64,000 nt of DNA. Origin: Bryobacterales bacterium (GTDB taxonomy: Bacteria; Acidobacteriota; Terriglobia; Bryobacterales; Bryobacteraceae). The notes under the pieces were generated by a model, which was given only the letters and a program-made list of their open reading frames with translations, was not told the DNA's origin and made no database searches. How positions within the stretch are numbered: the first letter of the stretch is position 1; each line of letters opens with the position of its first letter. Both the position numbers and the translations under genes were made by a program. This document shows, one piece after another, positions 36,541-56,688 of the stretch. Where the stretch lies: contig JADZBH010000041.1 of assembly GCA_020852175.1 (NCBI GenBank), positions 1 to 64,000 on the forward strand. Direction: 5' to 3'.

Positions 36541-37533
36541 ATGTTCCGCCGTGCCATCCTGTTTTCTTTCGCTTGGCTTCCGGCACTTTCCGCCGCCCAT
36601 ATCGAGTTGGTCGCCGGAGGCGGTGACGCCCAGCCCGGTGCGCCTCCCCTGGCGCTGCGGCTCGTCGAACCCTTCGGCGTCGAATACGATACGGCGGGCA
36701 ACTGGTACATCGTCGAACTAGCCGGAAACCGCCTCATCAAGGTGACCCCGCGCGGGGAAACCTCGTTGCTGGCCTCCTCCGAACTGAAGGAACCCCACGG
36801 CATCGCCATCACGCGCGAAGGCCGCCTGTTCATCGCCGATACGCACAACAACCGCGTCGGCCTTATCACCCTGCGCAGTAACGCCCTCACCTCCTTCGCC
36901 GGCACAGGAACTCCGGGGTACTCGGGCGACGGCGGACCGGCCAACGCCGCCGCTTTCCGCGGAGTCTTCGCGATCGCACTCGATCCGGCGCAGCGCAACC
37001 TCTACATCGCTGATCTCTCCAACCGGCGCATTCGCCGCATCGACCTCTCCAGCAACCTTGTCACCACGGCCGCGGGCAATGGCGGTAAGGGCGTCCCCAC
37101 CGATGGCTCCATGGCCGCGGAAAGCCCACTCACCGACCCCCGAGCCGTGGCCGCCGATTCCCACGGCAACATTTACGTGCTGGAACGCGGCGGGAACGCA
37201 CTGCGGCGCGTCGATCCAAACGGGCGCATCCGCACCCTGATCGCCCCAGGCCAGTTCACCCCCAACCTGAACGGCCCGAAGCATCTTTGCACCGACCGCC
37301 AGGGCCGGGTCATCATCGCCGATGCGGAAAATAACCTCGTTCGCCTCTACGACCCCGCCAACGGCTCCCTCCGGCCCCTGGCCGGAACCGGCAAACCCGG
37401 CATTACCGTGGTGGCCAACGACCCTCTACGCACGGAGTTGAACCGGCCGCATGGGGTCACCCTCGCGCCCGATGGCGCATTGATTATTTCCGACAGCTAT
37501 AACCACCGCATTCTCCGGCTCACCGGCTATTGA
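36541..37533 (+). CDS. Secreted NHL-repeat beta-propeller
   Basis: A 330 aa exported protein with signal peptide FRRAILFSFAWLPALSAA. The rest is NHL repeats, probably one six-bladed propeller: GVEYDTAGNWYIVELAGNRLIKV, GIAITREGRLFIADTHNNRVGLI, FAIALDPAQRNLYIADLSNRRIRRI, AVAADSHGNIYVLERGGNALRRV, HLCTDRQGRVIIADAENNLVRLY and GVTLAPDGALIISDSYNHRILRL. Such propellers bind ligands or act as extracellular enzymes; no catalytic residue can be named. Monocistronic on this strand. Confidence 0.88.
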   Translation: MFRRAILFSFAWLPALSAAHIELVAGGGDAQPGAPPLALRLVEPFGVEYDTAGNWYIVELAGNRLIKVTPRGETSLLASSELKEPHGIAITREGRLFIADTHNNRVGLITLRSNALTSFAGTGTPGYSGDGGPANAAAFRGVFAIALDPAQRNLYIADLSNRRIRRIDLSSNLVTTAAGNGGKGVPTDGSMAAESPLTDPRAVAADSHGNIYVLERGGNALRRVDPNGRIRTLIAPGQFTPNLNGPKHLCTDRQGRVIIADAENNLVRLYDPANGSLRPLAGTGKPGITVVANDPLRTELNRPHGVTLAPDGALIISDSYNHRILRLTGY

Positions 37534-37588
37534 TTTTCACGACAGCCTGCCGTATTTTGCAACATTCCGGCTAAGCGGCTGACCACGC

Positions 37589-37711: not shown

Positions 37712-37726
37712 TGGCCCCCCGATTGT
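37712..37726 (+). promoter_or_regulatory. Possible sigma-54 promoter of the redox module
   Basis: TGGCCC-N5-TTGT keeps the GG-N10 spacing of a -24/-12 element but has GT in place of the invariant GC. Expected start of transcription is near 37738, 18 nt before the ATG. The module encodes its own sigma-54 activator, which raises the prior. Confidence 0.3.
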
Positions 37727-37755
37727 CCTTACAAAGGACGGAAGGAAGGTTCATC

Positions 37756-38475
37756 ATGACCGTCATTTTGGTGCTTCTCACGTTCGCGGCTTTCATTCTT
37801 CTGGACTGGATCCTGGAGGAAAAACCTGTTGTCACTCCAATGCCCGAGGTAGCGGCGACCCACGCAAGAGTCACGCCGCTGCTGGATTCTGTCGAGGGTT
37901 TCCACACTCCGGCCAATGTGCGCTATCACCCAGGACACACCTGGATTCTGCGTGAGCGCAAGGGCTATGCCCGCGTTGGCATGGACGAGTTCGCCGCTGC
38001 TTTGAGCGGCGGCATCGAGCGCTTGGAACTCCCCCGTTCCGGCCAATGGATCCGCCAGGGACAGCGTGTGATCGCCGTCACGCGTCAGGGCGAACGGGTG
38101 GAACTGGTATCCCCCACCGAGGGCGAAGTAGTCGAAATCAACGAAGAGGTTCTCCGCAACCCGGCGCTGCTCCGTCAGCAACCGTATGAAAAGGGATGGC
38201 TCTTTGCCGTTCACGTGCCGGATGAGGAATCCACGTCGCGCAACCTGGTGCCCACGAATCTTGTGCGCGCCTGGATGAGCGAAGCCGTCCACGCAGTGTA
38301 CGCGCTCCAACCGCAGGCCGCCGGAGCCATCGCCGCCGATGGCGCCAGGCCCGCGGCTGACCTGCTGGCGAACCTGCCGGAGATTCCCTGGCAGTCCAAC
38401 GCCGCGGAGTTCTTCCTCACCCGAAACCACGAAAAACCGGCTGCGGCCGGCATGGCCCGCGAATTGCAGTCCTAA
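37756..38475 (+). CDS. Membrane-anchored glycine cleavage H-like protein without the lipoyl lysine
   Basis: A 239 aa protein. The ATG at 37756 has GGAAGG upstream. One membrane helix (VILVLLTFAAFILLDWIL) is followed by a GcvH-like fold: YHPGHTWILRERKGYARVGMDEFA, LPRSGQWIRQGQ, SPTEGEVVEINEEVLRNPALLRQQPYEKGWLFAV. In GcvH the lipoyl Lys lies in ESVKA before this last stretch; here the aligned residues are TRQGE, so the Lys is Gly. It therefore should not be lipoylated and is unlikely to work in glycine cleavage. Being first in a ferredoxin/NrfD cluster, it is probably a structural or redox-partner subunit. Function is not known to me. Confidence 0.75.
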   Translation: MTVILVLLTFAAFILLDWILEEKPVVTPMPEVAATHARVTPLLDSVEGFHTPANVRYHPGHTWILRERKGYARVGMDEFAAALSGGIERLELPRSGQWIRQGQRVIAVTRQGERVELVSPTEGEVVEINEEVLRNPALLRQQPYEKGWLFAVHVPDEESTSRNLVPTNLVRAWMSEAVHAVYALQPQAAGAIAADGARPAADLLANLPEIPWQSNAAEFFLTRNHEKPAAAGMARELQS

Positions 38476-38502: not shown

Positions 38503-39261
38503 ATGGCAAACGCGCTGCTGTATGACAGCACACTTTGTGTGGGATGCAAAGCCTGCGAAACGGCCTGTGCCGGGCGTTGGAAGCTTCCCTACAACGAGAA
38601 GATCGCCGAAGAGCAAACGCTTTCGGACCACAAACTCACCGTGGTGCAGACGCACGGCGAGAGCTTCGCCCGGCGCATGTGCATGCACTGCGCCGAGCCC
38701 ACCTGCGCCAGTGTCTGTCCGGTTGGCGCATTCACCAAGACGGCGCTCGGCCCGGTTGTCTACGACGCCTCCAAGTGCATCGGCTGCCGCTATTGCATGT
38801 TCGCTTGTCCCTTCCAGGCGCCGGTGTATGAATGGGGCTCCACGGCCCCCAAGGTCAGGAAGTGCGACCAGTGCCATGACCGCCAGATGGCGGGCAAAGT
38901 CACCGCATGCACGGAGGCCTGCCCCACTGGCGCCACCCTTAGCGGCGACCGTGACGCCATGATCGCCGAGGCCCGCAAACGCATCGCCGAAAACCCGGCC
39001 GGCTACTACCCGCGCATCTACGGGATTCAGGAAGCCGGCGGAACGGGAATGCTGCTGCTGAGCAAGGTCCCGTTCGAGCAGTTGGGGATGCCGAAGAACC
39101 TGCCGGACAGACCTCTGCCGCCGCTCACCTGGAACGTGCTCTCGTTCGTGCCGGACATCGCCTCGGTGGGTTCGGTTCTTCTGGGCGGTGTCTATTGGCT
39201 GACTCACCGCCGGGAGGCCGTGGCTCAAGCCGAGGACAGGCCACAAGGGGGCGTGTCATGA
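38503..39261 (+). CDS. HybA/NrfC-like ferredoxin with C-terminal membrane helix
   Basis: A 252 aa electron-transfer subunit with four [4Fe-4S] motifs: CVGCKACETAC, CMHCAEPTCASVC, CIGCRYCMFAC and CDQCHDRQMAGKVTACTEAC (16 Cys). A C-terminal helix (IASVGSVLLGGVYWL) anchors it, as in HybA. No Tat or Sec signal precedes the first cluster, so the clusters may face the cytoplasm unless a partner exports it. It overlaps the NrfD gene as ATGA. No catalytic hydrogenase or molybdenum subunit is encoded next to it. Confidence 0.9.
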   Translation: MANALLYDSTLCVGCKACETACAGRWKLPYNEKIAEEQTLSDHKLTVVQTHGESFARRMCMHCAEPTCASVCPVGAFTKTALGPVVYDASKCIGCRYCMFACPFQAPVYEWGSTAPKVRKCDQCHDRQMAGKVTACTEACPTGATLSGDRDAMIAEARKRIAENPAGYYPRIYGIQEAGGTGMLLLSKVPFEQLGMPKNLPDRPLPPLTWNVLSFVPDIASVGSVLLGGVYWLTHRREAVAQAEDRPQGGVS

Positions 39262-40424
39262 CCACGGCCGCGTTGCCCCTTCCCCGGCTGGACGCTCTGA
39301 GGCGGCGCATCTCCATCTGGCGCGTGATTTTCTACGCCATCATGAGCGCCGCTCTGTATACAACCTATCTGCGCGTCTTCCACGGCCTTGGCTCGGTCAC
39401 CAACCTCTCCGACCAGTTCCCGTGGGGCATCTGGATCGGGTTCGACGTGCTGTGCGGCGTCGGCCTGGCCGCCGGCGGCTTCACCCTGGTCGCCATTGTC
39501 CACATCTTCCACATCAAACGCTACGAGCCCATCCTGCGGCCGGCCATACTGACGGCCTTCCTGGGTTATCTGCTGGTCGTCGTCGCCCTGATGTTCGACC
39601 TCGGCCGTCCGGACCGCATCTGGCATCCGCTGGTCATGTGGAACCCCCGCTCCGTGATGTTCGAGGTGGCCTGGTGCGTGATGCTGTACAACACCGTGCT
39701 CGCTCTTGAATTCGCACCCGTCGTGTTTGAGCGCATGCAGTGGCGGCGCCCGATGAGGATGATCCAGTTCATCTCGCCGCCGCTGGTCATCGCCGGCGTC
39801 ATTCTCTCCACGCTGCACCAGTCCTCGCTCGGCTCGCTGTATCTGATCGTGCCGTCGAAACTCCACCCGCTGTGGTACTCGCCTCTGCTGCCGCTGCTGT
39901 TCTACATCTCGGCCATTTCGGTCGGCCTGGCCATGACGATTTTTGAAAGCTGGCACTCCGCGCGCGCGTTCGGCAAGCAACTGGAGTGGCCCCTGCTGAT
40001 GGGCCTTGGCCGCCTGCTGGCGGTTGTTCTGAGCGTCTTCCTGGTGATGCGTCTCATGGACCTGTCGCGCCGCCACGCGCTCTCCCTCGCCCTGGAACCC
40101 CGCATCGAGGTCTATCTGTTCTACGTCGAGATGCTCCTCATGGCCGCGCCCGTCCTGATTCTCTTTTCCGGCGCGACAGCCACCCGGCCCCGTCTGCTCT
40201 ATCTCTGCTCGGTGTCGGCGATCCTCGGGTTCATCGCCAACCGCCTGAACGTCAGCGTCACCGGAATTCAGGCCGTCACCGGCGCCACCTATGTGCCTCG
40301 CTGGACCGAGATCGCCATTACGCTGGGACTGGTCGCGGCGGGCTTCGCCATCTTCCGTCTGGCGGCCAAACACCTGCCTCTGTTTGAACATACGCCGCCG
40401 GGTCCGGTCCGGGAGAGTACATGA
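39258..40424 (+). CDS. NrfD/HybB-family quinone-interacting membrane protein
   Basis: A 388 aa integral membrane protein with about ten hydrophobic helices. The ATG at 39258 overlaps the ferredoxin stop; the longer ORF adds 21 unlikely residues. HybB-like features include VFHGLGSVTNLSDQFPWGIWIGFDVLCGVGLAAGGFTL, the VALMFDLGRPDRIWHPLVMWNPRSVMFEVAWCVMLY stretch and HQSSLGSLYLIVPSKLHPLWYSPLLPLLFY. Family members exchange electrons between a ferredoxin subunit and menaquinone. It overlaps the histidine kinase gene as ATGA, an unusual direct coupling of a redox enzyme to its sensor. Confidence 0.92.
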   Translation: MTTAALPLPRLDALRRRISIWRVIFYAIMSAALYTTYLRVFHGLGSVTNLSDQFPWGIWIGFDVLCGVGLAAGGFTLVAIVHIFHIKRYEPILRPAILTAFLGYLLVVVALMFDLGRPDRIWHPLVMWNPRSVMFEVAWCVMLYNTVLALEFAPVVFERMQWRRPMRMIQFISPPLVIAGVILSTLHQSSLGSLYLIVPSKLHPLWYSPLLPLLFYISAISVGLAMTIFESWHSARAFGKQLEWPLLMGLGRLLAVVLSVFLVMRLMDLSRRHALSLALEPRIEVYLFYVEMLLMAAPVLILFSGATATRPRLLYLCSVSAILGFIANRLNVSVTGIQAVTGATYVPRWTEIAITLGLVAAGFAIFRLAAKHLPLFEHTPPGPVREST

Positions 40425-42061
40425 AGGCGCTGGAGACGTGGTCCCCTCGCGGATGGCTGCCGGGCCTGGCCGGCAAGCTGGCGGTGAGCCTTGTGCTCAG
40501 CCTGGCGGCCATTCTCCTCGTCTTCAGCATGCTGAATTTGCGCATCCAGCGGCGGCAGTCCGAGGATCTTGTTCTGCGCAGCGCCTTGCGCGTGACCGCG
40601 CTTATCCAGCGCAGCACCCGCTATCAGATGCTGCACAACGACCGGGACGCGCTGCACCAGGTCCTCAAGGACATCGGCGAGGAGAACGGCATCTCGCACG
40701 TCCGGCTGTTCAACCGCGATGGCGCCATCCGGATCGCCGCTGGCAAAGGCCCAGGCACGCCACCGGCGCCGGTCATCGACCAGGAGAATCCCAAGCCCAG
40801 TTGGCGCATTGTTCCTTCCCGGGATGGACCTTCCCCCTCGGGGCGGCAACTGAACGTTGTCCGTCCCATTCCCAACGAGGCCTCCTGCTCCAACGCCGCC
40901 TGCCACGCCCACCCGGCGTCCCACAAGGTTCTGGGCGTCATCGACGCTCATCTTTCGTTAGCCGAAGTCGATGCCCAGATCGCCGAGCACCAGAATCTGC
41001 TCGCCCGTTTCAGTCTCACCGCCATCGCCCTTCTGTGCGCCATCAGTCTCCTGTTCATTTGGCGCGTCGTCTACCGCCCGGTGCGCGCCCTACGGGTGGG
41101 CACGGCCCGCGTCGCCTCGGGCGACCTTGCCTACCGGATTCCGGAATCTTCGCGCGATGAACTGGGAGCGCTGGCGCATTCGTTCAATCACATGACCGCG
41201 GAGTTGCAGGATGCCCGCGAGGAGATCACCTCCTGGGCCCACACGCTCGAACAGCGCGTCGATGCCAAGACGCGCGAACTGGAACGCGCCCGCCGTTCGC
41301 TCGCCGCCACCGAAACCATGGCTTCGCTCGGTAAAATCTCCGCCGCCGTCGCCCACGAGGTGAACAACCCGCTGTTTGGCATCCTCACTTACGCCCGCCT
41401 GGCGCTGCGCGACAACGAAAATACGCCGGGGCAGGAGAAAACCGTGGAGCGCCTCCGCGTGATTGAACGCGAAAGCCGCCGTTGCGGCGACATCATCCGC
41501 AACCTGCTCAACTTCGCCCGGCCCCGGCAGCCCTCCCGCCAACCCACGGACCTCGCCTCGCTCGCCTCCCATGCGCTGGCTCTGCTGAAGCACCCGTTCG
41601 AGCTGCAGAACGTTGCCGTGGAACAGTCCTTCCCGCCGGATCTGCCCGCCGTGCGCTGCGACCCCGCTCAGATCCAGCAGGTGTTCGTCGCCCTTCTCGT
41701 GAACGCTGGCGAGGCCATGCGCGGCGGCGAAGGCTCCATCCACATGGCCGCCGAACATCGCGGCGACGAGGTGGACATCCGCATCGCCGACACCGGGCCG
41801 GGCATTCCCGCGGCCGTCCTTCCGCACATTTTCGAGCCCTTCTACACCACCAAGGCCGAAGCGCAAGGAACCGGACTCGGCCTAGCCGTTGCCCGCAGCA
41901 TCGTCGAACAACACGGCGGCAGCCTGTCCGCCGCCAACCGCGCCCAGGGCGGGGCCGAATTCCTCATCCGCCTGCCGGTCGCGCCTCCCGATCTCCCCAC
42001 GGTGGGCGCGGCCCCTGACGAACGCTCTGCTTTCGAGGAGACCTTCCATGGAAAACAATAG
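40421..42061 (+). CDS. Sensor histidine kinase with a haem-type CX4CH motif
   Basis: A 546 aa membrane kinase. TM1 at about 18-40, an extracytoplasmic sensor region at about 41-190, TM2 at about 193-213, HAMP (YRPVRALRVGTARVASGDLAYRIP), a coiled coil, HisKA with His in AVAHEVNNPLFGILTYARL (about 310) and HATPase (NAGEAM, ADTGPGIP, GTGLGLAVARSIVEQHGG). Near residue 156 the sensor has CSNAACHAHP, a CX4CH motif of the kind that attaches haem c in tetrahaem cytochromes. Haem or redox sensing is therefore likely. It overlaps its response regulator by 14 nt and the NrfD gene by 4 nt. Confidence 0.92.
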   Translation: MKALETWSPRGWLPGLAGKLAVSLVLSLAAILLVFSMLNLRIQRRQSEDLVLRSALRVTALIQRSTRYQMLHNDRDALHQVLKDIGEENGISHVRLFNRDGAIRIAAGKGPGTPPAPVIDQENPKPSWRIVPSRDGPSPSGRQLNVVRPIPNEASCSNAACHAHPASHKVLGVIDAHLSLAEVDAQIAEHQNLLARFSLTAIALLCAISLLFIWRVVYRPVRALRVGTARVASGDLAYRIPESSRDELGALAHSFNHMTAELQDAREEITSWAHTLEQRVDAKTRELERARRSLAATETMASLGKISAAVAHEVNNPLFGILTYARLALRDNENTPGQEKTVERLRVIERESRRCGDIIRNLLNFARPRQPSRQPTDLASLASHALALLKHPFELQNVAVEQSFPPDLPAVRCDPAQIQQVFVALLVNAGEAMRGGEGSIHMAAEHRGDEVDIRIADTGPGIPAAVLPHIFEPFYTTKAEAQGTGLGLAVARSIVEQHGGSLSAANRAQGGAEFLIRLPVAPPDLPTVGAAPDERSAFEETFHGKQ

Positions 42062-43403
42062 ACTGCGCATCCTGATCGTCGACGACGAGGCCGTTGTCCG
42101 CGAATCGCTCACGCAGTGGTTCATGGCCGAAGGCTATGACGTCTGGGCCGTGCCGGGCGGAGCCGAGGCCCTGCGTCTTCTCCAGGACCGCGCCGCCGAC
42201 CTTGCCCTGCTCGATATCAAGATGCCCGGCATGGACGGCATGGAACTCCAGGCGCGTCTCCGCGAGATCGACCCCGAGCTCACCGTCATCATCATGACCG
42301 GCTTTGCCAGCGTCGAAACCGCCATCCGCGGCCTGAAACAAGGCGCCTGGGACTACCTCACCAAGCCCATCGACCCGGACCAGCTCTCCCATGCCGTCTC
42401 CAAGGCGCTCGAACACCGGCAGGCCCGACGGGAGTTGCGCCGTCTTCGCGAGAGCCTCGAAGAGATGGCCCCGCGCGTCGAAATGGTGGGCAACAGCCCG
42501 GCCATGCGCCGGGTCATGGAGCTGGTGGACACGGTGGCCGCCACCGACGCCACCGTGCTGATCACCGGCGAAAGCGGCACGGGCAAGGAGGTGATCGCCC
42601 GCTCCATCCACGCCGCCAGTCCGCGCCGCCACATGCCCATGGTGACCATTCACTGCGGCGCCCTCACCGAAACCCTGCTTGAAAGCGAGTTGTTTGGCCA
42701 CGAGCGAGGCGCTTTCACGGGAGCCCAGTTCCGCAAGAAAGGGAAGTTCGAGGTGGCCGACGGCGGCACGGTCTTCCTGGATGAGATCAGCGACATCAGC
42801 CTGAAGACGCAAACCGACCTGCTCCGCGTGCTTCAGGAAAAAGAGATCGTACGCGTGGGCGGCACCCACGCCTTGCGCGTCGATTTCCGGTGTATCGCCG
42901 CCACGAATAGAAGGCTGGAGGATCTTGTGCAGGCCGGCGCCTTCCGCCCTGACCTCTATTACCGTCTCCACGTCGTCACCATCGACATGCCCCCGCTCCG
43001 TAACCGCCGAGAGGACATTCCCCTGCTGGTGGCCCACTTCCTGCGCAAGTTTTCCGTCGCCATGAACCTGCCGGAAACCCCGCGACTGCGCCCGGAAGCC
43101 ATGGACGCCCTGCTGCGCTACAACTGGCCGGGCAACGTCCGCGAACTGGAGAACGCCATCGAGCGCGCCCTGGTCGTGGGCCGCGGGCAGGAGATCGGGC
43201 CGTCTCACTTCGCCCTGAGTCCGGCACAGAACGGCGCCAGCGGCTGCGCCTCCCACCAGACCATGACGCTGGACGAGGTGGAGCGCGTTCACATTGAACG
43301 GGTCGTGAAAGATGCCAACAACAACTATTCGCGGGCCGCGCGCATACTCGGCATCGACCGTTCCACCTTGTACAACAAGCTGCGCCGTTATGGAACAAAA
43401 TGA
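42048..43403 (+). CDS. Sigma-54-dependent response regulator, NtrC family
   Basis: A 451 aa activator. REC domain with the phospho-acceptor Asp in LLDIKMPGMDG (about 54), AAA+ domain with Walker A GESGTGKE and the sigma-54 contact loop GAFTGA (about 221), LDEISDISLKTQ as Walker B, RYNWPGNVRELENAIERA, and a Fis-type helix-turn-helix at the end (NNYSRAARILGIDRSTLYNKLRRYG). Start at ATG 42048 with GAGGAG; the longer ORF lies inside the kinase. It is paired with the haem-motif kinase. Likely targets are sigma-54 promoters nearby, including that before the propionate operon. Confidence 0.95.
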   Translation: MENNRLRILIVDDEAVVRESLTQWFMAEGYDVWAVPGGAEALRLLQDRAADLALLDIKMPGMDGMELQARLREIDPELTVIIMTGFASVETAIRGLKQGAWDYLTKPIDPDQLSHAVSKALEHRQARRELRRLRESLEEMAPRVEMVGNSPAMRRVMELVDTVAATDATVLITGESGTGKEVIARSIHAASPRRHMPMVTIHCGALTETLLESELFGHERGAFTGAQFRKKGKFEVADGGTVFLDEISDISLKTQTDLLRVLQEKEIVRVGGTHALRVDFRCIAATNRRLEDLVQAGAFRPDLYYRLHVVTIDMPPLRNRREDIPLLVAHFLRKFSVAMNLPETPRLRPEAMDALLRYNWPGNVRELENAIERALVVGRGQEIGPSHFALSPAQNGASGCASHQTMTLDEVERVHIERVVKDANNNYSRAARILGIDRSTLYNKLRRYGTK

Positions 43404-43978
43404 CGCCGGGGATCTCCCTCGTCCGGCTGGGCGACGGCGTGGACCCGGGTCTCCTCGCGCCGTTGCCTGCTGCCCTGACGTCGATTCTGCACATTCCTTG
43501 CTCGATAGAATCTGAAATATTAGATATTTCCCCGGCCTTCGATGCCGACCGCCGTCAATACCGCGTGGACCGGATCTTACAGCTCCTGTGCGACGGCATA
43601 CACCACCGGGGCGGTGTGCGCAGGTTGGGTGTGGCGGCGCATGATCTCTTCCTTCCCGTTCTCACGCATGTCTTCGGCGCGGGCCAGCTTGCGGGCTCCT
43701 GCGCCGTTGTTTCCCTTTACCGCTTGCGCGAGGAAATCTATGGCCTGGCTGAGTCGCGGCCCCTTCTGGAGGAGCGTCTCCTCAAGGAATCGCTGCATGA
43801 ACTCGGACATACGTCCGGTCTTCGCCATTGCGACGCCTGGCAATGTGTCATGTCTTCCAGCAATAGCGTGGAACTGGTTGACTTGAAATCGGCAAGGTAT
43901 TGCGTCCGTTGCCAAACATCTTTACAACGCACACTGCATGGACACGGCAGTCTCCGCTCCTCGGACCCGGCATCATGA
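43400..43978 (+). CDS. amzA: Archaemetzincin (peptidase M54)
   Basis: A 192 aa metalloprotease-like protein. Near residue 133 it carries the full archaemetzincin signature HELGHTSGLRHCDAWQCVM, followed by VELVDLKSARYCVRC; the three His and Glu form the catalytic zinc site and the four Cys a second structural zinc. No signal peptide, so cytoplasmic. The start overlaps the response regulator as ATGA, making it the last gene of the redox/two-component cluster. Physiological substrates of this family in bacteria are not established; its coupling to a signalling operon is unusual. Confidence 0.93.
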   Translation: MTPGISLVRLGDGVDPGLLAPLPAALTSILHIPCSIESEILDISPAFDADRRQYRVDRILQLLCDGIHHRGGVRRLGVAAHDLFLPVLTHVFGAGQLAGSCAVVSLYRLREEIYGLAESRPLLEERLLKESLHELGHTSGLRHCDAWQCVMSSSNSVELVDLKSARYCVRCQTSLQRTLHGHGSLRSSDPAS

Positions 43979-44000
43979 GCCCATGCCAGTAATGCTGCAA

Positions 44001-44017
44001 TTGGCATCAATCGTGCA
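44001..44017 (+). promoter_or_regulatory. Sigma-54 promoter of the Wood-Werkman operon
   Basis: TTGGCAT-N5-GTGCA matches the -24/-12 consensus (TGGCAC-N5-TTGC) with the exact GG-N10-GC spacing; GG is at 44003-44004 and GC at 44015-44016. Transcription should start near 44028. That leaves a 25-nt leader before the ATG at 44053 and makes the earlier ATG at 44035 unlikely. A NtrC-type activator is encoded two genes upstream. Confidence 0.65.
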
Positions 44018-44052
44018 CCGGTACGATGTAAAGGGTGCATGGTCTGAGTCAA

Positions 44053-45570
44053 ATGACACAACAAAATCCAAGAAAAATCGAGGTCACCGAATTAGTTCTG
44101 CGCGATGCGCATCAGAGCCTGCTGGCCACGCGCATGGCGACCGAAGATATGATTCCGGCGTGCGAGGATATCGACAAGGCCGGGTATTGGTCCGTGGAGT
44201 GCTGGGGCGGGGCCACGTTCGACTCCTGTATCCGCTTCCTGAATGAGGACCCTTGGGAGCGCCTTCGCACCTTCCGGAAACTGCTGCCCAATTCCCGCCT
44301 GCAAATGTTGTTGCGGGGGCAGAATCTTTTGGGATACCGCCACTACGAAGACACCGTTGTCGATCGCTTCGTCGAAAAGGCCGCCGAAAACGGCATGGAT
44401 GTTTTCCGCGTGTTCGACGCGTTGAATGACGTGCGCAACGTACGCCGCGCCATCCGCGCCGTGAAACGGACCGGCAAACACGCCCAGGGCACCATCTGTT
44501 ACACCATCTCGCCCCTGCACACCGTGCAGGGTTATGTCGAGTTGGCGGAAAAGCTGGTGGACATGGGTTGCGACTCTCTCTGCATCAAGGACATGGCCGC
44601 CCTGCTGAAGCCGCAACCGGCTTACGACATTGTGAGCGCCATCAAGGAATCCCTGGGCGAGGCGGTGCGCGTCCACGTCCATGTGCATGCCACCACCGGC
44701 GTCACGCTGGTCAGCCTGATGAAGGCCATCGAAGCGGGCGCCGACGCCGTCGATACTTCCATTAGCGCGCTCAGCCTCGGCCCGGGCCACAACCCCACCG
44801 AAAGCCTGGTGGAGATGTTGGAGGATACCGGTTACACCACCGGTCTCGACATGGAGCGGCTGCTCCGGATCAAGGATCATTTCGCGAAAATCCGCCCACG
44901 CTACGCGGAGTTTCTTTCCAACATCACGGGAGTGGAGACCGAGATCTTCCAGTCGCAGATACCGGGCGGCATGATCTCCAACATGGAAAGCCAGCTCAAA
45001 CAACAGGGCGCCGCGGACCGCATCAGGGAAGTGCTTGCCGAGGTGCCCCGTGTGCGCGCCGATGCCGGCTATCCGCCGCTGGTGACGCCATCGAGCCAGA
45101 TCGTGGGCACGCAGGCCGTCTTCAACGTCCTGATGGGCCGTTACAAGGTGCTTACGGGCGAGTTCGCCGACCTGATGCTTGGCTACTACGGCGAAACCAT
45201 CGGGCCGCGGAACCCCGAGGTGATCTCGCTGGCTGGCGCCCACGCCAAGAAACCCTCCATCACCCAGCGTCCGGCCGACCTGCTCACGCCTGAATGGGAC
45301 CAGTTGCGCGCCGGGGCGCTGGCGCTGGAAGGCTGCAACGGCAGCGACGAGGACGTGCTCACGCACTCCATGTTTCCTCAGGTCGCTCCGCGCTTCTTCA
45401 AGACTCGCGCCCAGGGACCGAAGAACGTGGGACGCGACCCGCGGGCGGCCGCCGCTCCGCAGCCCGCCTCCGGTGCGCCTGCCCCGGGACAGACGCCCGT
45501 CCGCACGCCCATCACCTATGAAGTGAAACTGGACGGCCGGACGCACACCGTCACCGTCACACCGGCTTAG
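44053..45570 (+). CDS. Transcarboxylase 5S subunit
   Basis: A 505 aa biotin-dependent carboxyltransferase that moves the carboxyl group between carboxybiotin and pyruvate/oxaloacetate. The sequence closely follows the Propionibacterium methylmalonyl-CoA carboxytransferase 5S subunit (RDAHQSLLATRMA, YWSVECWGGATFDSCIRFLNEDPWERLR, QMLLRGQNLLGYRHY). Metal ligands are Asp of LRDAHQ, the carbamylated Lys of CIKDMAALLKP and His of VHVHATTG. A C-terminal tail (PITYEVKLDGRTHTVTVTPA) matches the 5S end. The start at 44053 is chosen from the sigma-54 start site. No biotin carboxylase gene is in the operon, which fits a transcarboxylase. Confidence 0.94.
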   Translation: MTQQNPRKIEVTELVLRDAHQSLLATRMATEDMIPACEDIDKAGYWSVECWGGATFDSCIRFLNEDPWERLRTFRKLLPNSRLQMLLRGQNLLGYRHYEDTVVDRFVEKAAENGMDVFRVFDALNDVRNVRRAIRAVKRTGKHAQGTICYTISPLHTVQGYVELAEKLVDMGCDSLCIKDMAALLKPQPAYDIVSAIKESLGEAVRVHVHVHATTGVTLVSLMKAIEAGADAVDTSISALSLGPGHNPTESLVEMLEDTGYTTGLDMERLLRIKDHFAKIRPRYAEFLSNITGVETEIFQSQIPGGMISNMESQLKQQGAADRIREVLAEVPRVRADAGYPPLVTPSSQIVGTQAVFNVLMGRYKVLTGEFADLMLGYYGETIGPRNPEVISLAGAHAKKPSITQRPADLLTPEWDQLRAGALALEGCNGSDEDVLTHSMFPQVAPRFFKTRAQGPKNVGRDPRAAAAPQPASGAPAPGQTPVRTPITYEVKLDGRTHTVTVTPA

Positions 45571-45615
45571 AGCCGGCCGCCCTTCGCCCTCGGATTGTGG
45601 AAACGGGAGACAACT

Positions 45616-47163
45616 ATGCCCACGATGGATGAACGATTGGAACAGTTGCGCACGCGCCGTGCCGCCTTGCAGGCCGGCGGCGGCGAGGAAAAGCTGGACA
45701 AGCTCCGCGCCCAGGGCAAACAGACCGCCCGCGAGCGTATCGAGGCTCTCCTCGACCCCAACAGCTTCCAGGAAACCGGACTCTTCGCCCAGCACCGCGC
45801 CACCCTGTTCGGCATGGCGGGCAAGGAGATGGCCGCCGACGGCGTCGTTACCGGCGCGGGAACCGTGGCCGGGCGTCTGATTCACCTGGCCAGCCAGGAT
45901 TTCTCCGTGGCCGGAGGCTCGGCCGGCGAGGTCCACTCGATGAAGGTCGCCGACACCATGCAGCAGTCGCTGAAGACCGGCACGCCGTTCGTGTTCATCA
46001 ACGACTCCGGCGGCGCGCGCGTGCAGGAGGGCATCGACTCGCTGTCCGGTTACGGCAAGGTGTTCCACACGAACGTCATGCTGAGCGGCGTCGTACCTCA
46101 GATCTCGCTCATCTGCGGCCCGTGCGCGGGAGGCGCCGCCTACAGCCCGGCGCTCACCGACTTCATCATTCAAACCCGCAAAGCCCAGATGTTCATCACG
46201 GGACCCGGCGTCATCAAACAGGTCACCGGCGAGAACGTCACCGCCGAGCAACTCGGCGGCCCCGACGCTCATATGGTCCACTCGGGCGTGATTCACTTCA
46301 TCGCCGAGGACGACGCCGAGGCCGCGCTGCTCTGCCAGAAACTGCTCAGCTTCCTGCCCTCGAATAATCTCGAGGACCCGCCCGAGTTCCCCACCGACGG
46401 CAACGTCGATCCGAACGAGGCGCTGAACACCCTGGTGCCCATCGAAGGGAAACAGGCCTATGATGTCCGCGACGTCATCGTGAACATCGTGGACTCAGGC
46501 GACTTCCTGGAAGTGCAGTCCGGCTACGCTCCCAACATCGTCATCGGGTTTGCCCGCATTCTCGGCCGCACCGTAGGCCTCGTCGGCAACCAGCCCAAGG
46601 TGAACGCCGGCGTGCTCGACATCAACGCCTCGAACAAGGCGTCCCGCTTCATCCGCTTCTGCAACGCGTTCAATATTCCGCTGGTCACCTTCGTGGATGT
46701 CCCCGGCTTTCTGCCCGGCGTGCAGCAGGAGTACGGCGGCATTATCCGCCACGGAGCCAAGATGCTGTTTGCCTACTCGGCCGCCACGGTCCCCAAGGTG
46801 ACCATTATTCTGCGCAAGGCTTTCGGAGGCGCTTACCTGGCCATGTGCGGCAAGGACCTGGGCGCCGACCGCGTCTTCGCCTGGCCCGCGGCCGAGGTGG
46901 CCGTCATGGGCGCCGAGGGCGCCGCCGAGATTGTCTTCAAGCGGGAAATCGATGCCGCCGTGGATAAGGCCGCCAAGCGCCGGGAAATGATCGAGGAGTA
47001 CCGGGAGGCGTTTTCCACGCCCTATGTCGCCGCCGGACGCCGTCTGGTCGATGACATCATAGAACCCGCCGGCACGCGCCGCGTCATTGCCCGGACACTC
47101 GAATACCTGCACACGAAGCGCGAACTGCGGCCGTCCAAGAAGCACGGCCTCATCCCGCTCTAA
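45616..47163 (+). CDS. Transcarboxylase 12S subunit (acyl-CoA carboxyltransferase)
   Basis: A 515 aa crotonase-fold carboxyltransferase acting on methylmalonyl-CoA/propionyl-CoA. Two oxyanion regions are clear: FINDSGGARVQEGIDSLSGYG with GPCAGGAAYSPALTDF, and VPGFLPGVQQEYGGIIRHGAKMLFAYSAATVPKVTIILRKAFGGAYLAM. ATG 45616 has GGGAGA upstream. In the transcarboxylase it pairs with 5S through the biotin carrier. The same family serves propionyl-CoA carboxylase, so PccB is the alternative; the 5S neighbour argues for transcarboxylase. Confidence 0.94.
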   Translation: MPTMDERLEQLRTRRAALQAGGGEEKLDKLRAQGKQTARERIEALLDPNSFQETGLFAQHRATLFGMAGKEMAADGVVTGAGTVAGRLIHLASQDFSVAGGSAGEVHSMKVADTMQQSLKTGTPFVFINDSGGARVQEGIDSLSGYGKVFHTNVMLSGVVPQISLICGPCAGGAAYSPALTDFIIQTRKAQMFITGPGVIKQVTGENVTAEQLGGPDAHMVHSGVIHFIAEDDAEAALLCQKLLSFLPSNNLEDPPEFPTDGNVDPNEALNTLVPIEGKQAYDVRDVIVNIVDSGDFLEVQSGYAPNIVIGFARILGRTVGLVGNQPKVNAGVLDINASNKASRFIRFCNAFNIPLVTFVDVPGFLPGVQQEYGGIIRHGAKMLFAYSAATVPKVTIILRKAFGGAYLAMCGKDLGADRVFAWPAAEVAVMGAEGAAEIVFKREIDAAVDKAAKRREMIEEYREAFSTPYVAAGRRLVDDIIEPAGTRRVIARTLEYLHTKRELRPSKKHGLIPL

Positions 47164-47172
47164 GGAGACGCC

Positions 47173-47508
47173 ATGGCATCGGAACTGCGATTGGAATGTA
47201 AGTTTCAAATGGCGGAGATGGAGGCCCAGATCCATGATCTGAAGGCGAAGATCGAGGCTCTGGAGCGCCGGTTCGCCGCGGCATCCGCCGCCACCCCTCC
47301 GGCCGCCAGGGCAACGCCGGCTCCGAAAGCCGCTCCCCCGCCGCCGGGCATTCCGGAGGAGGTTTTGCTCGCTATCTCGGCCGCCGTCGCCGCCTTCCTC
47401 GGCAAGCGCGGACACATCCGCCAGATCCGTCTGGCGAGTTCCCCGGCCTGGGCTCAGCAGGGGCGCGCCTCCATCCAGGCCTCACACGGCATCGTCGTGC
47501 AACGTTAG
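47173..47508 (+). CDS. Small carboxyltransferase subunit, OadG-like but soluble
   Basis: A 111 aa protein. An N-terminal coiled coil (LECKFQMAEMEAQIHDLKAKIEALERRFAAA) and a Pro/Ala linker are followed by EEVLLAISAAVAAFLGKRGHIRQIRL and WAQQGRASIQASH. That C-terminal block resembles the tail of gamma/delta small subunits of sodium-pump decarboxylases, but the N-terminal membrane helix of OadG is missing. It probably bridges subunits of the transcarboxylase. It lies 9 bp after the 12S gene and 12 bp before the carrier gene. Confidence 0.7.
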   Translation: MASELRLECKFQMAEMEAQIHDLKAKIEALERRFAAASAATPPAARATPAPKAAPPPPGIPEEVLLAISAAVAAFLGKRGHIRQIRLASSPAWAQQGRASIQASHGIVVQR

Positions 47509-47520
47509 CGGAGATTGAAC

Positions 47521-47898
47521 ATGAAACTGAAAGTTACGGTGGATGGCAAGACCTACGAGGTGGACGTGGAGGTGGCCGAGGATCCTCACCCGGCGCCGGC
47601 CGCCTACATGACTCAGCCCGCCCCCGTGCGGGTGCCCGCCGCCGGAGCGCCGCCCGTGCCGCCCGCCCCCTCGCCGGAGGATGGCGGCAAGGTGTGCCGC
47701 AGTCCCATCTCGGGTATCGTCGTCAAGATCAGCGCCCAGCCCGGCCAGCAGATTCAGCCCGGCGACATCCTGATTGTCCTGGAGGCCATGAAGATGGAGA
47801 CCAACATCACCGCGCCCGTGGCCGGCAAGGTCGCCGCCATCAAGGTGAACGTAGGCGACAATGTCCAAAGCGGGCAGGTGGTCGTCGAATGCGAATAG
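47521..47898 (+). CDS. Biotinyl carrier protein (transcarboxylase 1.3S)
   Basis: A 125 aa carrier. It opens with KLKVTVDGKTYEVDVE, has an Ala/Pro-rich flexible linker, and ends in a biotinyl domain with the biotinylated Lys in LEAMKMETNITAPVAGKV. It shuttles carboxyl groups between the 5S and 12S active sites. The ATG at 47521 is preferred to the TTG at 47515. Length matches the Propionibacterium 1.3S subunit. Confidence 0.95.
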   Translation: MKLKVTVDGKTYEVDVEVAEDPHPAPAAYMTQPAPVRVPAAGAPPVPPAPSPEDGGKVCRSPISGIVVKISAQPGQQIQPGDILIVLEAMKMETNITAPVAGKVAAIKVNVGDNVQSGQVVVECE

Positions 47899-47915
47899 TG
47901 GCGGAGGAACGTACG

Positions 47916-48374
47916 ATGACACAGGAACTCTCACAAGTCCCCGGTTTTCTCTGCGTGGACCATGTCGCCGTCGCCGTCAAACCCGGTGAATTGGAGCAGC
48001 ATGTGGCTGCCTATAAGACCATGGGCTTCACCGAGATCCACCGCGAGGAGGTTCTCGGCAAGGATCAGGTGCGCGAAGTGCTGCTCCGTATCGGCGATGG
48101 TCCGAACCTGATCCAACTGCTCGAGCCGCTCACGCCTGAATCGCCCGTCTCCAGGCAAATTGAAAAGTCCGGGGGCCGCGGCGGCTTCGCCCACGTCGCT
48201 TTTCGCGTGGCCGGCATTCAGGCCGCCTTCGACCACCTGAAGGCCAACGGTTTTCAAATCCTCGACGACGCCCCGCGCCCCGGCTCGCGCGGCACCACCG
48301 TCTTCTTCGTGCATCCGAAGACGACGGCCCAGGCGGCGTTCGGCTACCTGATTGAAGTGGTGCAGGAGGGCTGA
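47916..48374 (+). CDS. mce: Methylmalonyl-CoA epimerase
   Basis: A 152 aa vicinal-oxygen-chelate enzyme interconverting (S)- and (R)-methylmalonyl-CoA. Metal ligands fit His of CVDHVAVAV, Gln of NLIQLLEP, His of GFAHVAFRV and Glu of [13 protein letters not shown] precedes the ATG. It links the transcarboxylase product to the mutase encoded 2 bp downstream. HGTTVFF-type C-terminal loops are as usual for the family. Confidence 0.93.
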
Positions 48375-48376
48375 CC

Positions 48377-51122
<2,746 letters not shown>

Positions 51123-51139
<17 letters not shown>

Positions 51140-52172
51140 GCCGGCGGCGCGGTTTCCCCGCCGCCGCCTGACGGTGGAGCAGTATGTCGAGGGCGTCCTG
51201 TCGGCCAACCGCGCCGTGCTGGCGCGCGCCATCACGGTGATTGAAAGCGATCATCCGGACGATGGCGGCCTTGCCGCCGACATTCTGGACGCCATCCTGC
51301 CGCACACCGGCAACTCGCGCCGGATTGGAATCACAGGCGTTCCGGGCGCAGGCAAGAGTACCTTTCTCGACACGCTCGGCATGCACCTGATTCGCGATCA
51401 TGGCGAAAAGCTGGCCGTGCTCAGCGTCGATCCCTCCAGCCCCGTTTCCGGCGGCAGCATCCTCGGCGACAAGACGCGCATGGAACGGCTCTCCGCCGAG
51501 GACAACGCCTTCATCCGCCCCTCTCCGTCGCGCGGCTTTCTCGGCGGCGTCGCCCGCCGCACGCGCGAAACCATGCTGCTGTGCGAAGCCGCCGGCTACC
51601 GCAACGTGCTGGTGGAAACGGTGGGCGTCGGACAGTCGGAAACCGCCGTCCGGTCGATGACCGATTTCTTCCTGTTGCTGATGCTCCCCGGAGCGGGCGA
51701 CGAATTGCAGGGGATTAAGCGAGGCATTCTCGAAATGGTGGATGGCATGGCGATCAACAAAGCCGATGGCGACAACGCCGCGCGCGCCGCGCGGGCCCGC
51801 GCCGACTATGCGAGCGCTCTGCATCTGTTCCCTCCGGCGCCAGGCGGCTGGACGCCCCGCGTGCTCTCATGCAGCGCCCGCACCGGCGAAGGCATCGCCG
51901 AAGTTTGGCAGAGCGTGCTTGACCACGGCGAACTGATGGTCCGGCAAGGGCTGATGGCGGCGCGGCGCCGCGAGCAGTCGCTCGCCTGGATGCGCGAGTT
52001 GATCTCGATTGGCCTCGAGGAAGAGTTTCATCGCGACGCCGGAATGCAGCGGCGATTGCCCGAACTGGAGGGGGAGGTGCGTTCGGGCGCCACCACTCCG
52101 TTCGCCGCCGCCCGGACGCTGCTGCGCGAGTTTCATTCGCTTCATACGTCATCCCCCCCGTCAAAGGAGTAG
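51123..52172 (+). CDS. meaB: Methylmalonyl-CoA mutase-associated GTPase MeaB
   Basis: A 349 aa G3E-type GTPase that loads cobalamin into the mutase and protects it from inactivation. Walker [39 protein letters not shown] and the guanine motif NKADGD are all present. GTG start, overlapping the mutase gene by 17 nt. The C-terminal helices mediate dimerisation in MeaB. Its place between mutase and CoA-transferase is standard for propionate operons. Confidence 0.95.
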
Positions 52173-52175
52173 CGC

Positions 52176-53687
52176 ATGTCATTCCCGTTTCCCGTACTTA
52201 CCCCGGAGGAGGCGGCCGAACTCATCGACGATGGCGCCACCATCGGCTTCAGCGGCTTCACGCCGGCCGGCGCGGCCAAGGCCATTCCCGTCGCCATCGC
52301 GAACAAGGCCGAGCGCCTTCATGCGGCCGGCCAGCCCTTCGCCATCCGCGTGCTCACCGGCGCCTCCACCGGCCGGAGCCTCGACGGCGCGCTCGCCAAG
52401 GCCAACGCCATCAGCTTCCGCACGCCATACCAGTCCGACCCCACGCTGCGCAAGCAGATCAATTCCGGACAGGTCCACTTTCTCGACATGCACCTTTCCG
52501 TGCTGCCGCAGCAGGTTCGATACGGCTTCCTGGGCAACGTGAACTGGGCCATTCTGGAGGCCTGCGACATCACGCACGGCGGCGGCATCGTATTGACCAC
52601 ATCGGTTGGCGTCTCCAATACCTACGCGCACCGCGCCGAACGCGTCCTGATCGAGCTGAACCGGCGCCACCCGGCGCAACTTCTCGGCATGCACGACATC
52701 TTCGAACCCGCCGACCCGCCCGCCCGGAATGAAATTCCCATCTACAACGTCGATGACCGTATCGGCTCGCCCGTCCTGGTGATCGACCCCAGGAAAATCG
52801 CCGGAGTCGTCTTCACAGACGCCGACGACGAGGCCAGCCCTTTCGCCGACGCCACGCCGGTCACCGAGAAGATCGGCCAGAACGTCGCCGAATTCCTGGT
52901 GGCGGAAATGCGCGCCGGCCGCATCCCGAAAACCTTTCTGCCCTTGCAATCCGGCGTGGGCGATATCGCCAACGCGGTGCTTGGCGCGCTCGGCGCCCAC
53001 CCCGAGGTGCCCGATTTCGAGATGTACACCGAGGTTCTCCAGGATTCCGTCATGGATCTGCTCGAATCCGGCCGCTGCCGGTTCGCCTCGACGTGCGCCC
53101 TCACGCTCAGCCCCGAGAAGAACGCCCAGTTCCACGGCAACCTCGATTTCTTCCGCTCCCGGATTCTGATGCGCCCGCAGGAGATCACCAACCACCCGGA
53201 ACTGGTCCGGCGGCTCGGCATCATCTCCATGAACACGGCGATTGAAATGGACCTGGGCGGCAACGTGAACTCGACTCACGTCATGGGCAAGACGATGATG
53301 AACGGCATTGGCGGCTCCGGCGATTTCACGCGCAACGCCTACGTCTCCATCTTCAGTTGCCCCTCCACGCAAAAGAACGGCAAGATCTCCACCATCGTGC
53401 CGCTGTGCTCGCACATCGACCATAACGAACACTCCGTGCAGATTGTCGCCACCGAATACGGTGTGGCCGATCTGCGCGGCAAGGACCCGCACGAGCGCGC
53501 CGGCCTCATCATCGAGAACTGCGCACACCCGGATTTCCGCGACCAGCTCCGCGGCTACATGCGCCTGCTCCGCAGCGACACCCACGAGCCGTTCAGCCTG
53601 ACCGGCGCTTTCGCCATGCACCGGCACTTCCTGGAAACCGGGGATATGCGCGGCGTCGACTGGCCCGCCTGGAAGGAACGCCGGTAG
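52176..53687 (+). CDS. Succinate/propionyl-CoA CoA-transferase (acetyl-CoA hydrolase family)
   Basis: A 503 aa class I CoA-transferase of the Cat1/AarC/ScpC group. The conserved Glu expected to form the acyl-CoA intermediate is in ISMNTAIEMDLGGNVNSTHVMG, followed by MNGIGGSGDFTRNAY and EYGVADLRGKDPHERA. AAAGGAG precedes the ATG. In this operon it most likely transfers CoA from propionyl-CoA to succinate, releasing propionate and closing the Wood-Werkman cycle. Acetate as the acyl partner is the alternative. Confidence 0.92.
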   Translation: MSFPFPVLTPEEAAELIDDGATIGFSGFTPAGAAKAIPVAIANKAERLHAAGQPFAIRVLTGASTGRSLDGALAKANAISFRTPYQSDPTLRKQINSGQVHFLDMHLSVLPQQVRYGFLGNVNWAILEACDITHGGGIVLTTSVGVSNTYAHRAERVLIELNRRHPAQLLGMHDIFEPADPPARNEIPIYNVDDRIGSPVLVIDPRKIAGVVFTDADDEASPFADATPVTEKIGQNVAEFLVAEMRAGRIPKTFLPLQSGVGDIANAVLGALGAHPEVPDFEMYTEVLQDSVMDLLESGRCRFASTCALTLSPEKNAQFHGNLDFFRSRILMRPQEITNHPELVRRLGIISMNTAIEMDLGGNVNSTHVMGKTMMNGIGGSGDFTRNAYVSIFSCPSTQKNGKISTIVPLCSHIDHNEHSVQIVATEYGVADLRGKDPHERAGLIIENCAHPDFRDQLRGYMRLLRSDTHEPFSLTGAFAMHRHFLETGDMRGVDWPAWKERR

Positions 53688-53730: not shown

Positions 53731-56688
53731 ATGCGTTCCGCTGGCGTTGTCCTGGGTATCTGCGCGCTTTCTCTCAATGCGGCCGAACGCCCCGTGGAAT
53801 TCAACCGCGACGTCCGCCCCATCCTCTCGGACAACTGCTTCACCTGCCACGGACCCGACGCCAAGACGAAGAACATTCCGCTTCGTCTCGACCAGGAAGC
53901 CGCGGCGAAGGCCGATTTGGGCGCCGGCCGCCACGCCATCGTCGAAGGCTCGCCCGAGCAGAGCGAAGTCATACGCCGCATCACCACGGAGAGCAAGGCC
54001 AAACGCATGCCTCCGGTGTATACGGGCCACTCCATCGCCACTCGCGAACTGGAGATTCTGAAGTCCTGGATCGCTTCGGGAGCCAAGTGGGAAAAGCACT
54101 GGTCCTTCACCCCTCCTCAATCGCCGGCCCTGCCGCGGGTGAGCACGCCCGCATGGGTCCGCAACCCCATCGACGCCTTTATCCTGGAACGCCTGGACCG
54201 GGAAGGGTTGAAACCTTCGCCGGAAGCCTCGCCGGAGACTCTGCTGCGGCGGGCCTCGCTCGATCTCACCGGTCTGCCGCCCACGCCCGCGGAGATCGAC
54301 GCCTTCCTTTCCGACCGTTCGCCCAAAGCCTACGAGCGCGCCGTGGACCGTCTGCTCGCCTCGCCCCGCTACGCCGAGCGCATGGCCTACCGCTGGCTCG
54401 ACTATGCCCGCTATTCCGACACCAACGGCTACCAGTTCGACGGCGAGCGTTCCATGTGGCGCTGGCGTGATTGGGTGATCGACGCCTTCGACCGCGACAT
54501 GCCGTACAACCAGTTCGCCATCGAGCAGATCGCCGGCGACATGTTGCCCAACGCGACCGCGGCACAAAGGACCGCCACCGGCTTCAACCGCAACCATCGC
54601 GGCAACTCCGAGTTCGGCATCATCGCCGAGGAGTACGCCGTCGAGTATGTCGTGGACCGCGTCGAAACCACGTCCGCCGTCTTTCTCGGCCTCACGCTCG
54701 GTTGCGCCCGCTGCCACAACCATAAGTACGACCCCATTACGCAGAAGGAGTTCTACCAGGTCTACGCCTACTTCAACAACGTGCCCGAGCATGGACGCGC
54801 CATGAAGTACGGCAATTCGCCGCCGGTGATCGCCGCTCCCACCGCCGCGCAGCAGGCCGAAGCCCGGGCGATCGACGCGAAGATCGCCGCGCTGCAATCG
54901 GCCATCGGCGCCCGCGCTGCCCATACGCGCGCCGGGATGGAGTCCTGGCGGCGCACGGTTGCCGGATCGCAAACCTCGTGGCCGCTGGCTTCCGGCCTGG
55001 AAGGCGATCTTTCGAAGATCCTCTATGACATCGATGACCGCTTCACGGTGTCGGCGCGCATCCAGTCCGCCGCCGTGCCGCACGGGGCGGTCTGGAGCCG
55101 CATGAGCAACTCACCGCGCGGCCGCGGCTTCGGCCTCTATGCGAAGCAGGGAAAACTGCACGTCCACATCACCAGCGACTACGATGACGACGGCATCCGC
55201 CTGAACTCGAAGACGGCGCTTGCGGCGGGGCGCTCCTACAACGTGCTGCTCACCTACAGCGGCTCGCGAATGGCCGAGGGCATTCATGTGTACGTCGATG
55301 GCGCCGAAGTGGAGATGGAGGCCGAACTCGATTCCCTCTACCGCCCGTTGGGCAATGCCGGCAAGGCATTCAAGGAGCCTTTCCGCGTCGGCGAGGGAGG
55401 CGGCCCGGAGAACAGGTTCAACGGCTCGGTCACCGGCGTCTCCGTCTACTCGCGCGTGCTCAACGGTGATGAGATCACGGCCCTGGCCTCGACTGGTCCC
55501 TCGCTGCTCTACTATCTCGATCACGCCGCCGCGCCGGAGGTGCGCGCCGAATGGGCATCGCTGTCCGCTCTCCGCCGGCAGAGGGAAGCGCTGGAGCGTT
55601 CGTTCCCCACCGTCATGGTGATGGCCGAACGCGGCGAACGACGTCCCACGCACATCCTGAACCGCGGCCAGTACGATAAGCCGGGAGAGGTGGTGGAACC
55701 GGGCGTCCCGGCGCAACTGCATCCGCTGCCCGCTGGAGCGCCGAACAACCGGCTCGGTTTCGCGCGATGGCTCGTGGACCCCGGCAATCCGCTCACCGCG
55801 CGTGTCGCCGTGAACCGCTTTTGGCAGATGATGTTCGGCGTGGGTCTCGTGAAGACCGTCGAGGATTTTGGCCTGCAAGGCGAATGGCCCTCCCACCCCG
55901 CCCTGCTGGACTGGCTGGCCACCGAGTTCGTCCGCTCGGGATGGGACACGAAGGCGCTGCTGAAGACGATGGTCACCAGCGCCGCCTACCGGCAAAGCTC
56001 AGCCGCCACGCACGAGCTGCTTCAGCGCGATCCCGAGAACCGGCTGCTGGCCCGCGGCGCACGGTTCCGGCTGCCCGCGGAAGCCGTTCGCGACGGGGCG
56101 CTGGCCATCTCCGGGCTGCTGGACGGCCGCACAGGCGGCCCCTCCGTGAAGCCCTACCAGCCCGACGGCCTGTGGAAGGAACTCACCATGCAGGACATGG
56201 ACTATGTGCAGTCGCATGGGCCTGACCTCTACCGGCGCTCGCTTTACACCTTCTGGAAACGCACGGTGGCCCCGCCCATGCTGGCCAATTTCGACGCCGC
56301 CAACCGCGAATCCTGCGTCGTCCGCGAAAGCCGCACGAACACGCCTCTTCAGGCATTGAACCTGATGAACGATGTTCAGTTCGTCGAGGCCGCGCGCCTG
56401 CTGGGCCAGCGGATGATGCGTGAGAGCGGCGCGACGCCTTCCGAACGCCTGCGTTACGGCTTCCGGCTGGCCACGGGCCGCCTGCCCAGCGCGAAGGAAG
56501 CGGAGGTGCTTTCGGGCAGCCTCAGCTATCATCTCGACTATTTCGCCGGCAACGCCACGCGCATCGACGAGTTCCTGGCGCAGGGCGAAACCAGGCCCGA
56601 CCCGGCTTTGGACCGGCGCGAACTCGCCGCCTATGGCGCCGTCGGCAGTCTGCTGCTGAATCTCGATGAAACGGTGACCCGCCCATGA
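53731..56688 (+). CDS. PSCyt1/DUF1549/LamG/DUF1553 exported cytochrome-like protein
   Basis: A 985 aa secreted protein. A signal peptide is followed by a planctomycete-type cytochrome c motif ([16 protein letters not shown], haem CxxCH near residue 35), then DUF1549 ([65 protein letters not shown] with another CxxCH), a concanavalin/LamG-like insert (about 420-600) and DUF1553 ([37 protein letters not shown]). Such proteins pair with DUF1501 partners, encoded here with an ATGA overlap. Substrate unknown; polysaccharide or sulphated-glycan use is often proposed. Confidence 0.9.

Follow-up and report, generated by a model that had tools for sequence, protein, structure and literature searches.

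Positions 44001-44017 on the forward strand of the window, the stretch of 64,000 nucleotides analyzed here, probably represent a working, genus-specific sigma-54 promoter which drives a Wood-Werkman operon. Sigma-54 RNA polymerase would bind the -24/-12 elements and start transcription near 44028 as soon as an active enhancer-binding protein is available. The adjacent NtrC-type regulator would activate its own redox module by means of operators at 37528-37564 and a promoter at 37712; the candidate activator of the operon's first gene, encoding the 5S subunit of methylmalonyl-CoA carboxytransferase, is either this regulator acting through unrecognized sites or another of the about 14 activators of the genome. 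A first-pass annotation had proposed a sigma-54 promoter before the propionate operon with the neighboring regulator as its switch; the promoter very probably stands, whereas the switch is not supported.

The site reads TTGGCAT (44001-44007), a spacer of five nucleotides (CAATC), and GTGCA (44013-44017); its core motif at 44002-44017 is TGGCATCAATCGTGCA. GG at 44003-44004 and GC at 44015-44016 are separated by exactly ten nucleotides, which is the GG-N10-GC arrangement of a sigma-54 dependent promoter. The site lies within the 74 nt that separate the archaemetzincin gene (43400-43978) from the 5S start codon ATG at 44053, and 35 bases intervene between 44017 and this ATG; coordinates and spacing had been given correctly in the first-pass annotation. 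The label near-consensus used there is fair, as 10 of the 12 specified positions of the extended consensus TGGCAYRN4TTGCW match. The site resembles sigma-54 (RpoN) promoters (consensus TGGCACR-N4-TTGCW) in the invariant GG-N10-GC, the TGGCA -24 element, the short distance to the gene, and a genome encoding both sigma-54 and activators, but differs from them by C at -20 (for R) and G at -15 (for T). The resulting CGTGC version of the -12 element, unlike the RpoN consensus, is shared with flagellar and redox-module promoters of the lineage. The predicted transcription start lies at 44028 (+ strand), 12 nt past the C in the GC of the -12 element. The in-frame codon GTG at 44035 provides an alternative 5S start, yet it is located merely 7 nt past this position. 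An inverted repeat TGCACC/GGTGCA (entry 43690-43703 and 44014-44039) extends across the -12 element and the leader in the window; among inverted repeats sought in the 5S upstream region, none was both convincing and conserved.

The significance of the match was examined by several scans. A consensus scan of the window with up to three mismatches yielded 191 matches with 220 expected; it was rejected as proof of the site because there was no excess over shuffled sequence. With a position matrix, which is approximate since its frequencies were rounded from a published compilation, the site scored 13.2 of 19. Scores as high were found at four places in 128 kb (both strands) as compared to about 1.6 expected in first-order Markov sequence. 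Genome-wide, TGGCAYN6TGCW occurred 39 times and the reversed-pattern control also 39 times; hence, this count was discarded as support. When the best-scoring sites of the genome were compared with the positions of predicted genes, those scoring at least 16 were mostly intergenic, some of them located before flagellar rod and hook-associated genes, and those scoring 12.5-16 were mostly within genes. The canonical sites before flagellar genes indicate that sigma-54 is in use in this genome, which carries rpoN (PF00309, E 8.8e-14). By score alone the 5S site is unremarkable. Other genomic sites with similar scores lie mostly within genes and are for the most part chance matches; judged by these scans, the site is unconvincing from one genome alone. 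Conservation in relatives lifts it above chance.

The window's genome (G000) was compared with two relatives of the genus, G001 and G002. Both are syntenic with the window over the whole region, with a nucleotide identity of 86% for G001 and 75-77% for G002. Alignment of the 74-nt gap across the genus was poor outside the promoter and the ribosome-binding region (window, TTGGCATCAATCGTGCACC; G001, ATGGCATCAATCGTGCACC; G002, TTGGCCCCGTTCGTGCACC). At the equivalent place within this diverged intergenic DNA, TGGCATCAATCGTGCACC was found in G001 and TTGGCCCCGTTCGTGCACC in G002. Identity to G002 was 15/19 in the site, 9/23 upstream, and 18/33 downstream. Given the flanking identity to G002, the chance of 15/19 is 0.006 and that of all nine key positions being kept is 0.0014; the comparison with G001 is weakly informative, and the three species, few as they are, have one shared ancestry. 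Both relatives retain the -24 and -12 elements, and the spacer letters change at a fixed length, as a sigma-54 promoter would predict.

A search with the pattern TGGCNNCNNTCGTGCACC revealed one further exact match in G002, TTGGCCCCATTCGTGCACC, located 19 nt upstream of the start codon for a FlgF-like flagellar rod protein (L295:9783-10557) and differing from the 5S site of the same genome by one base in 19. Orthologous flgF promoters are found at the corresponding place in the window's genome (TGGCACACCGCGTGCT) and in G001 (TGGCACGCCGCGTGCT), and a CGTGC -12 element precedes flgF in all three genomes. Flagellar genes are classic sigma-54 targets; therefore, the sigma-54 of this lineage apparently accepts the CGTGC form.

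Furthermore, 123 regions upstream of 5S orthologues from the family and beyond were scanned, some of them representing the same genome twice. Contig identities with named records (G028, CALDSU010000002; G014, JADZCI010000194; G009, JACTMJ010000006) suggest that the family is Bryobacteraceae (Acidobacteriota). The site at -50/-51 from the ATG was present in 3/3 genus members and in 0/32 other family members, and among all 123 regions it was limited to the three genus members. A family-wide 5S promoter was thus rejected; elsewhere, a strong sigma-54-like site was seen only in G211 of another genus (L218), where TGGCATAAGACATGCT lies at -222 from 5S. A sigma-54 site following amzA was likewise rejected as a family feature, being absent in 27 relatives outside the genus.

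The genes downstream of the site are all encoded on the forward strand. The first one (44053-45570) encodes the 5S subunit and scored 965 bits with NF008984 (cut-off 827). It is followed by genes for a carboxyltransferase 12S-like subunit (45595-47163; PF01039, 620 bits; TIGR01117-like, under the cut-off of that model), a small ORF matching no Pfam family (47173-47508), a biotin carboxyl carrier protein (47515-47898; PF00364), a glyoxalase-fold protein that is likely methylmalonyl-CoA epimerase (47694-48374; PF13669), methylmalonyl-CoA mutase (48377-51139; NF006944, 1330 bits, cut-off 876), the GTPase MeaB (51123-52172; PF03308), and an acetyl-CoA hydrolase/CoA transferase (52176-53687; PF02550, PF13336). 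The epimerase-like domain begins at residue 89; hence, the true start of this gene is presumably further in than 47694. Genes for 5S, 12S, biotin carrier, epimerase, and mutase together identify a Wood-Werkman (transcarboxylase/methylmalonyl-CoA) operon, in agreement with the earlier designation as a propionate operon. A PSCyt1/PSD1 and DUF1501 gene pair is located immediately past the CoA transferase gene, at 53731-58121.

If the promoter works, a central fermentation or propionate pathway would be under sigma-54 control in Acidobacteriota. Sigma-54 control of propionate catabolism is known from PrpR, which acts on the methylcitrate pathway. Both systems have a propionate-related operon under sigma-54 in common, but the pathway here is the Wood-Werkman/methylmalonyl-CoA route, and the neighboring activator is a two-component regulator reaching 314 of the 499 bits needed for TIGR02329, i.e. 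it is not PrpR. No prior report on sigma-54 control of transcarboxylase or methylmalonyl-CoA operons was found in the literature searched, which was covered in part. Syntrophobacter encodes many sigma-54 activators, and the available portion of the source does not tie its propionate genes to a particular one (PMC3570798).

The regulator gene (42048-43403, + strand) encodes a receiver domain with its aspartate (PF00072), an AAA+ domain with Walker A/B and GAFTGA motifs (PF00158), and a Fis-type HTH (PF02954), as is characteristic for NtrC-family sigma-54 activators. GAFTGA and the recognition helix are conserved in relatives, the helix DR(S/T)TLYNKLRRYG being near-identical across the family; the earlier assignment as a sigma-54 activator is supported. 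Altogether, 13 full-length PF00158 activators and one fragment are encoded in the genome. The protein resembles NtrC, AtoC, and ZraR in its domains and, as predicted here, in having palindromic operators placed 80-180 nt ahead of sigma-54 promoters. It remained under the cut-off of every curated equivalog (AtoC 456 of 714, ZraR 438 of 760) and was therefore filed under none of them. A further difference from these systems is the partner kinase with its periplasmic heme-type motifs.

This membrane sensor histidine kinase (40421-42061, + strand; HAMP, HisKA, HATPase_c) carries the periplasmic motif CSNAACH, a c-type-heme-like CX4CH, which is retained in nearly all relatives; most of their kinases contain a second motif, CXXCH, which was lost in the window's genus. 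The genes located upstream, also on the + strand, encode a membrane-anchored GcvH-like protein (37756-38475; PF01597, family-wide synteny), a HmcB/HybA-like Fe-S protein (38503-39261; best NCBIfam match HmcB, under the model cut-off), and a HmcC/HybB-like NrfD-family membrane protein (39195-40424; PF03916, best NCBIfam match HmcC, under cut-off). Archaemetzincin (peptidase M54, amzA; 43400-43978, + strand; PF07998) is encoded by a gene overlapping that of the regulator. In the Hmc/HybAB membrane redox complexes, HmcB and HmcC are the closest counterparts of the Fe-S and NrfD-family subunits, with all subunits under the equivalog cut-offs; in contrast to those complexes, the module here also includes a heme-motif kinase with its NtrC-type regulator, an archaemetzincin, and a GcvH-like membrane protein. 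On account of the CX4CH motif and the Fe-S and NrfD-family partners, it is plausible that the kinase senses a heme-based redox signal, and the earlier description of a redox two-component system is plausible to the same extent.

The order GcvH-like, HmcB-like Fe-S, HmcC-like NrfD, heme-motif kinase, regulator, archaemetzincin was found in relatives, and in 20 of them the regulator remains with the redox module and not with 5S. Regulator gene and amzA are adjacent in all 30 family amzA loci examined; they are located beside 5S only in the window's genus.

DNA upstream of redox-module promoters from 20 genomes was analyzed by expectation-maximization with a palindrome constraint. This de novo analysis yielded a putative operator ahead of the GcvH-like gene, TGTTGAAA-n-TTTCAACA, and we infer that this palindrome is the operator of the regulator. 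The best three matches in the window (37890-37906, 37528-37544, and 37548-37564) all fall where the redox module begins. Ranked second and third in the whole window, the latter two constitute predicted response-regulator operators at 37528-37564. Additionally, a sigma-54 promoter matching TGGC(A/C)(T/C)-N6/7-GTG(C/T)C precedes the GcvH-like gene in nearly all relatives; by expectation, about 4.5% of equally long stretches would contain such a pattern. With a lineage promoter matrix derived from 17 relatives that do not belong to the genus, the site at 37712-37727 (+ strand), likely the regulator's own target, ranked first in 128 kb (19.4 vs. 14.3 for the next). The segment 37528-37727, with the two predicted operators and this lineage-type promoter (TGGCCCCCCGATTGTC), carries the window's stronger regulatory signal. 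As synteny, operator, and lineage promoter all coincide at the redox module, the comparative evidence assigns the regulator there and not to 5S; judged from these sequences, the regulator probably governs the redox operon to which it belongs. More broadly, a testable regulon emerges, consisting of a family-wide module, a defined operator motif and promoter, and an uncharacterized two-component system with heme motifs. A second sigma-54-like site, TGGCCCGCGAATTGCA, was observed at 38453-38468 (+ strand; score 15.1) still inside the GcvH-like gene at its 3' end and 34 nt ahead of the Fe-S gene. It is identical in the three genus members, which is ambiguous because the site is located in coding DNA; similar TGG...ATTGC(A/T) sites occur between the GcvH-like and Fe-S genes in several relatives.

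The regulator could still affect the 5S operon through unrecognized sites or by read-through, or another activator could be responsible. Read-through, by which a regulator-driven redox transcript from the GcvH-like gene to amzA would extend into 5S, is considered less likely than not; it needs no operator at 5S and is compatible with other routes. The kinase, regulator, and amzA genes overlap, the gap to 5S is 74 nt, and no terminator-like site was detected on the + strand in 43703-45700 by a scan that is blind to Rho-dependent ends. If such a transcript served 5S, however, a conserved promoter of its own within the gap would be needless.

Direct activation of the 5S promoter by the adjacent regulator, bound upstream of 44000, would mean that a redox signal turns on Wood-Werkman metabolism, as had been proposed in the first-pass annotation. 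This link is consistent with an adjacency conserved in the genus, with a promoter confined to that genus in which the 5S operon adjoins the regulator, and with the heme-type motifs of the kinase. Of the 21 regulators mapped in Desulfovibrio vulgaris, 7 target adjacent operons and 8 bind ahead of their own gene or operon (PMC3333781); neither outcome would thus be unusual here. The best operator score was 15.6 upstream of the redox module as compared to 0.8 upstream of 5S, where no match to TGTTGAAA-n-TTTCAACA was found and the best score equals the median of random 210-nt stretches. Furthermore, the regulator is part of the redox module in all relatives examined. The lineage redox-promoter matrix placed the 5S site at rank 17, i.e. 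outside the redox-promoter subtype, and a 5S promoter copied from that of the redox module was rejected on this basis. Direct activation is therefore regarded as rather unlikely, and the proposal that the two-component system switches on the Wood-Werkman operon was not upheld. A sigma-54 match beside an activator gene is insufficient to show that this activator uses the match.

Tentatively, the two systems may be connected by regulon capture: a heme-sensing system which elsewhere controls its own redox module only would have gained control of propionate metabolism after the Wood-Werkman operon had moved adjacent to it in this genus. The new sigma-54 promoter, read-through, or both would have provided the route, and the periplasmic redox state would thereby be coupled to fermentation.

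The conserved block before 5S might also be a chance match or another element, e.g. an operator around the palindromic GTGCAC, with GG-N10-GC being incidental. Similar scores are common by chance in 5 Mb and few species could be compared, but TTGGC is kept along with GTGCACC around a spacer altered at constant length, and the same pairing of elements recurs at flgF; this explanation is accordingly considered improbable. A sigma-70 type promoter with TTGGCA (44001-44006) as the -35 element, a 5/6 match to TTGACA, is very unlikely, because an acceptable -10 element is absent at a distance of 16-18 nt, no -10 element is conserved, the hexamer changes to ATGGCA in G001 and TTGGCC in G002, and no sigma-70-like site was found at the stated threshold within 36.4-45.7 kb.

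A look-alike of the 5S site, TGGCATCCTTCGTGCACC, was observed in the same genome on a 3.2-kb contig (L246:2220-2237). It lies about 25 nt before an ORF for a small membrane protein, with a frameshifted sigma-54 activator fragment about 1.4 kb ahead of it.
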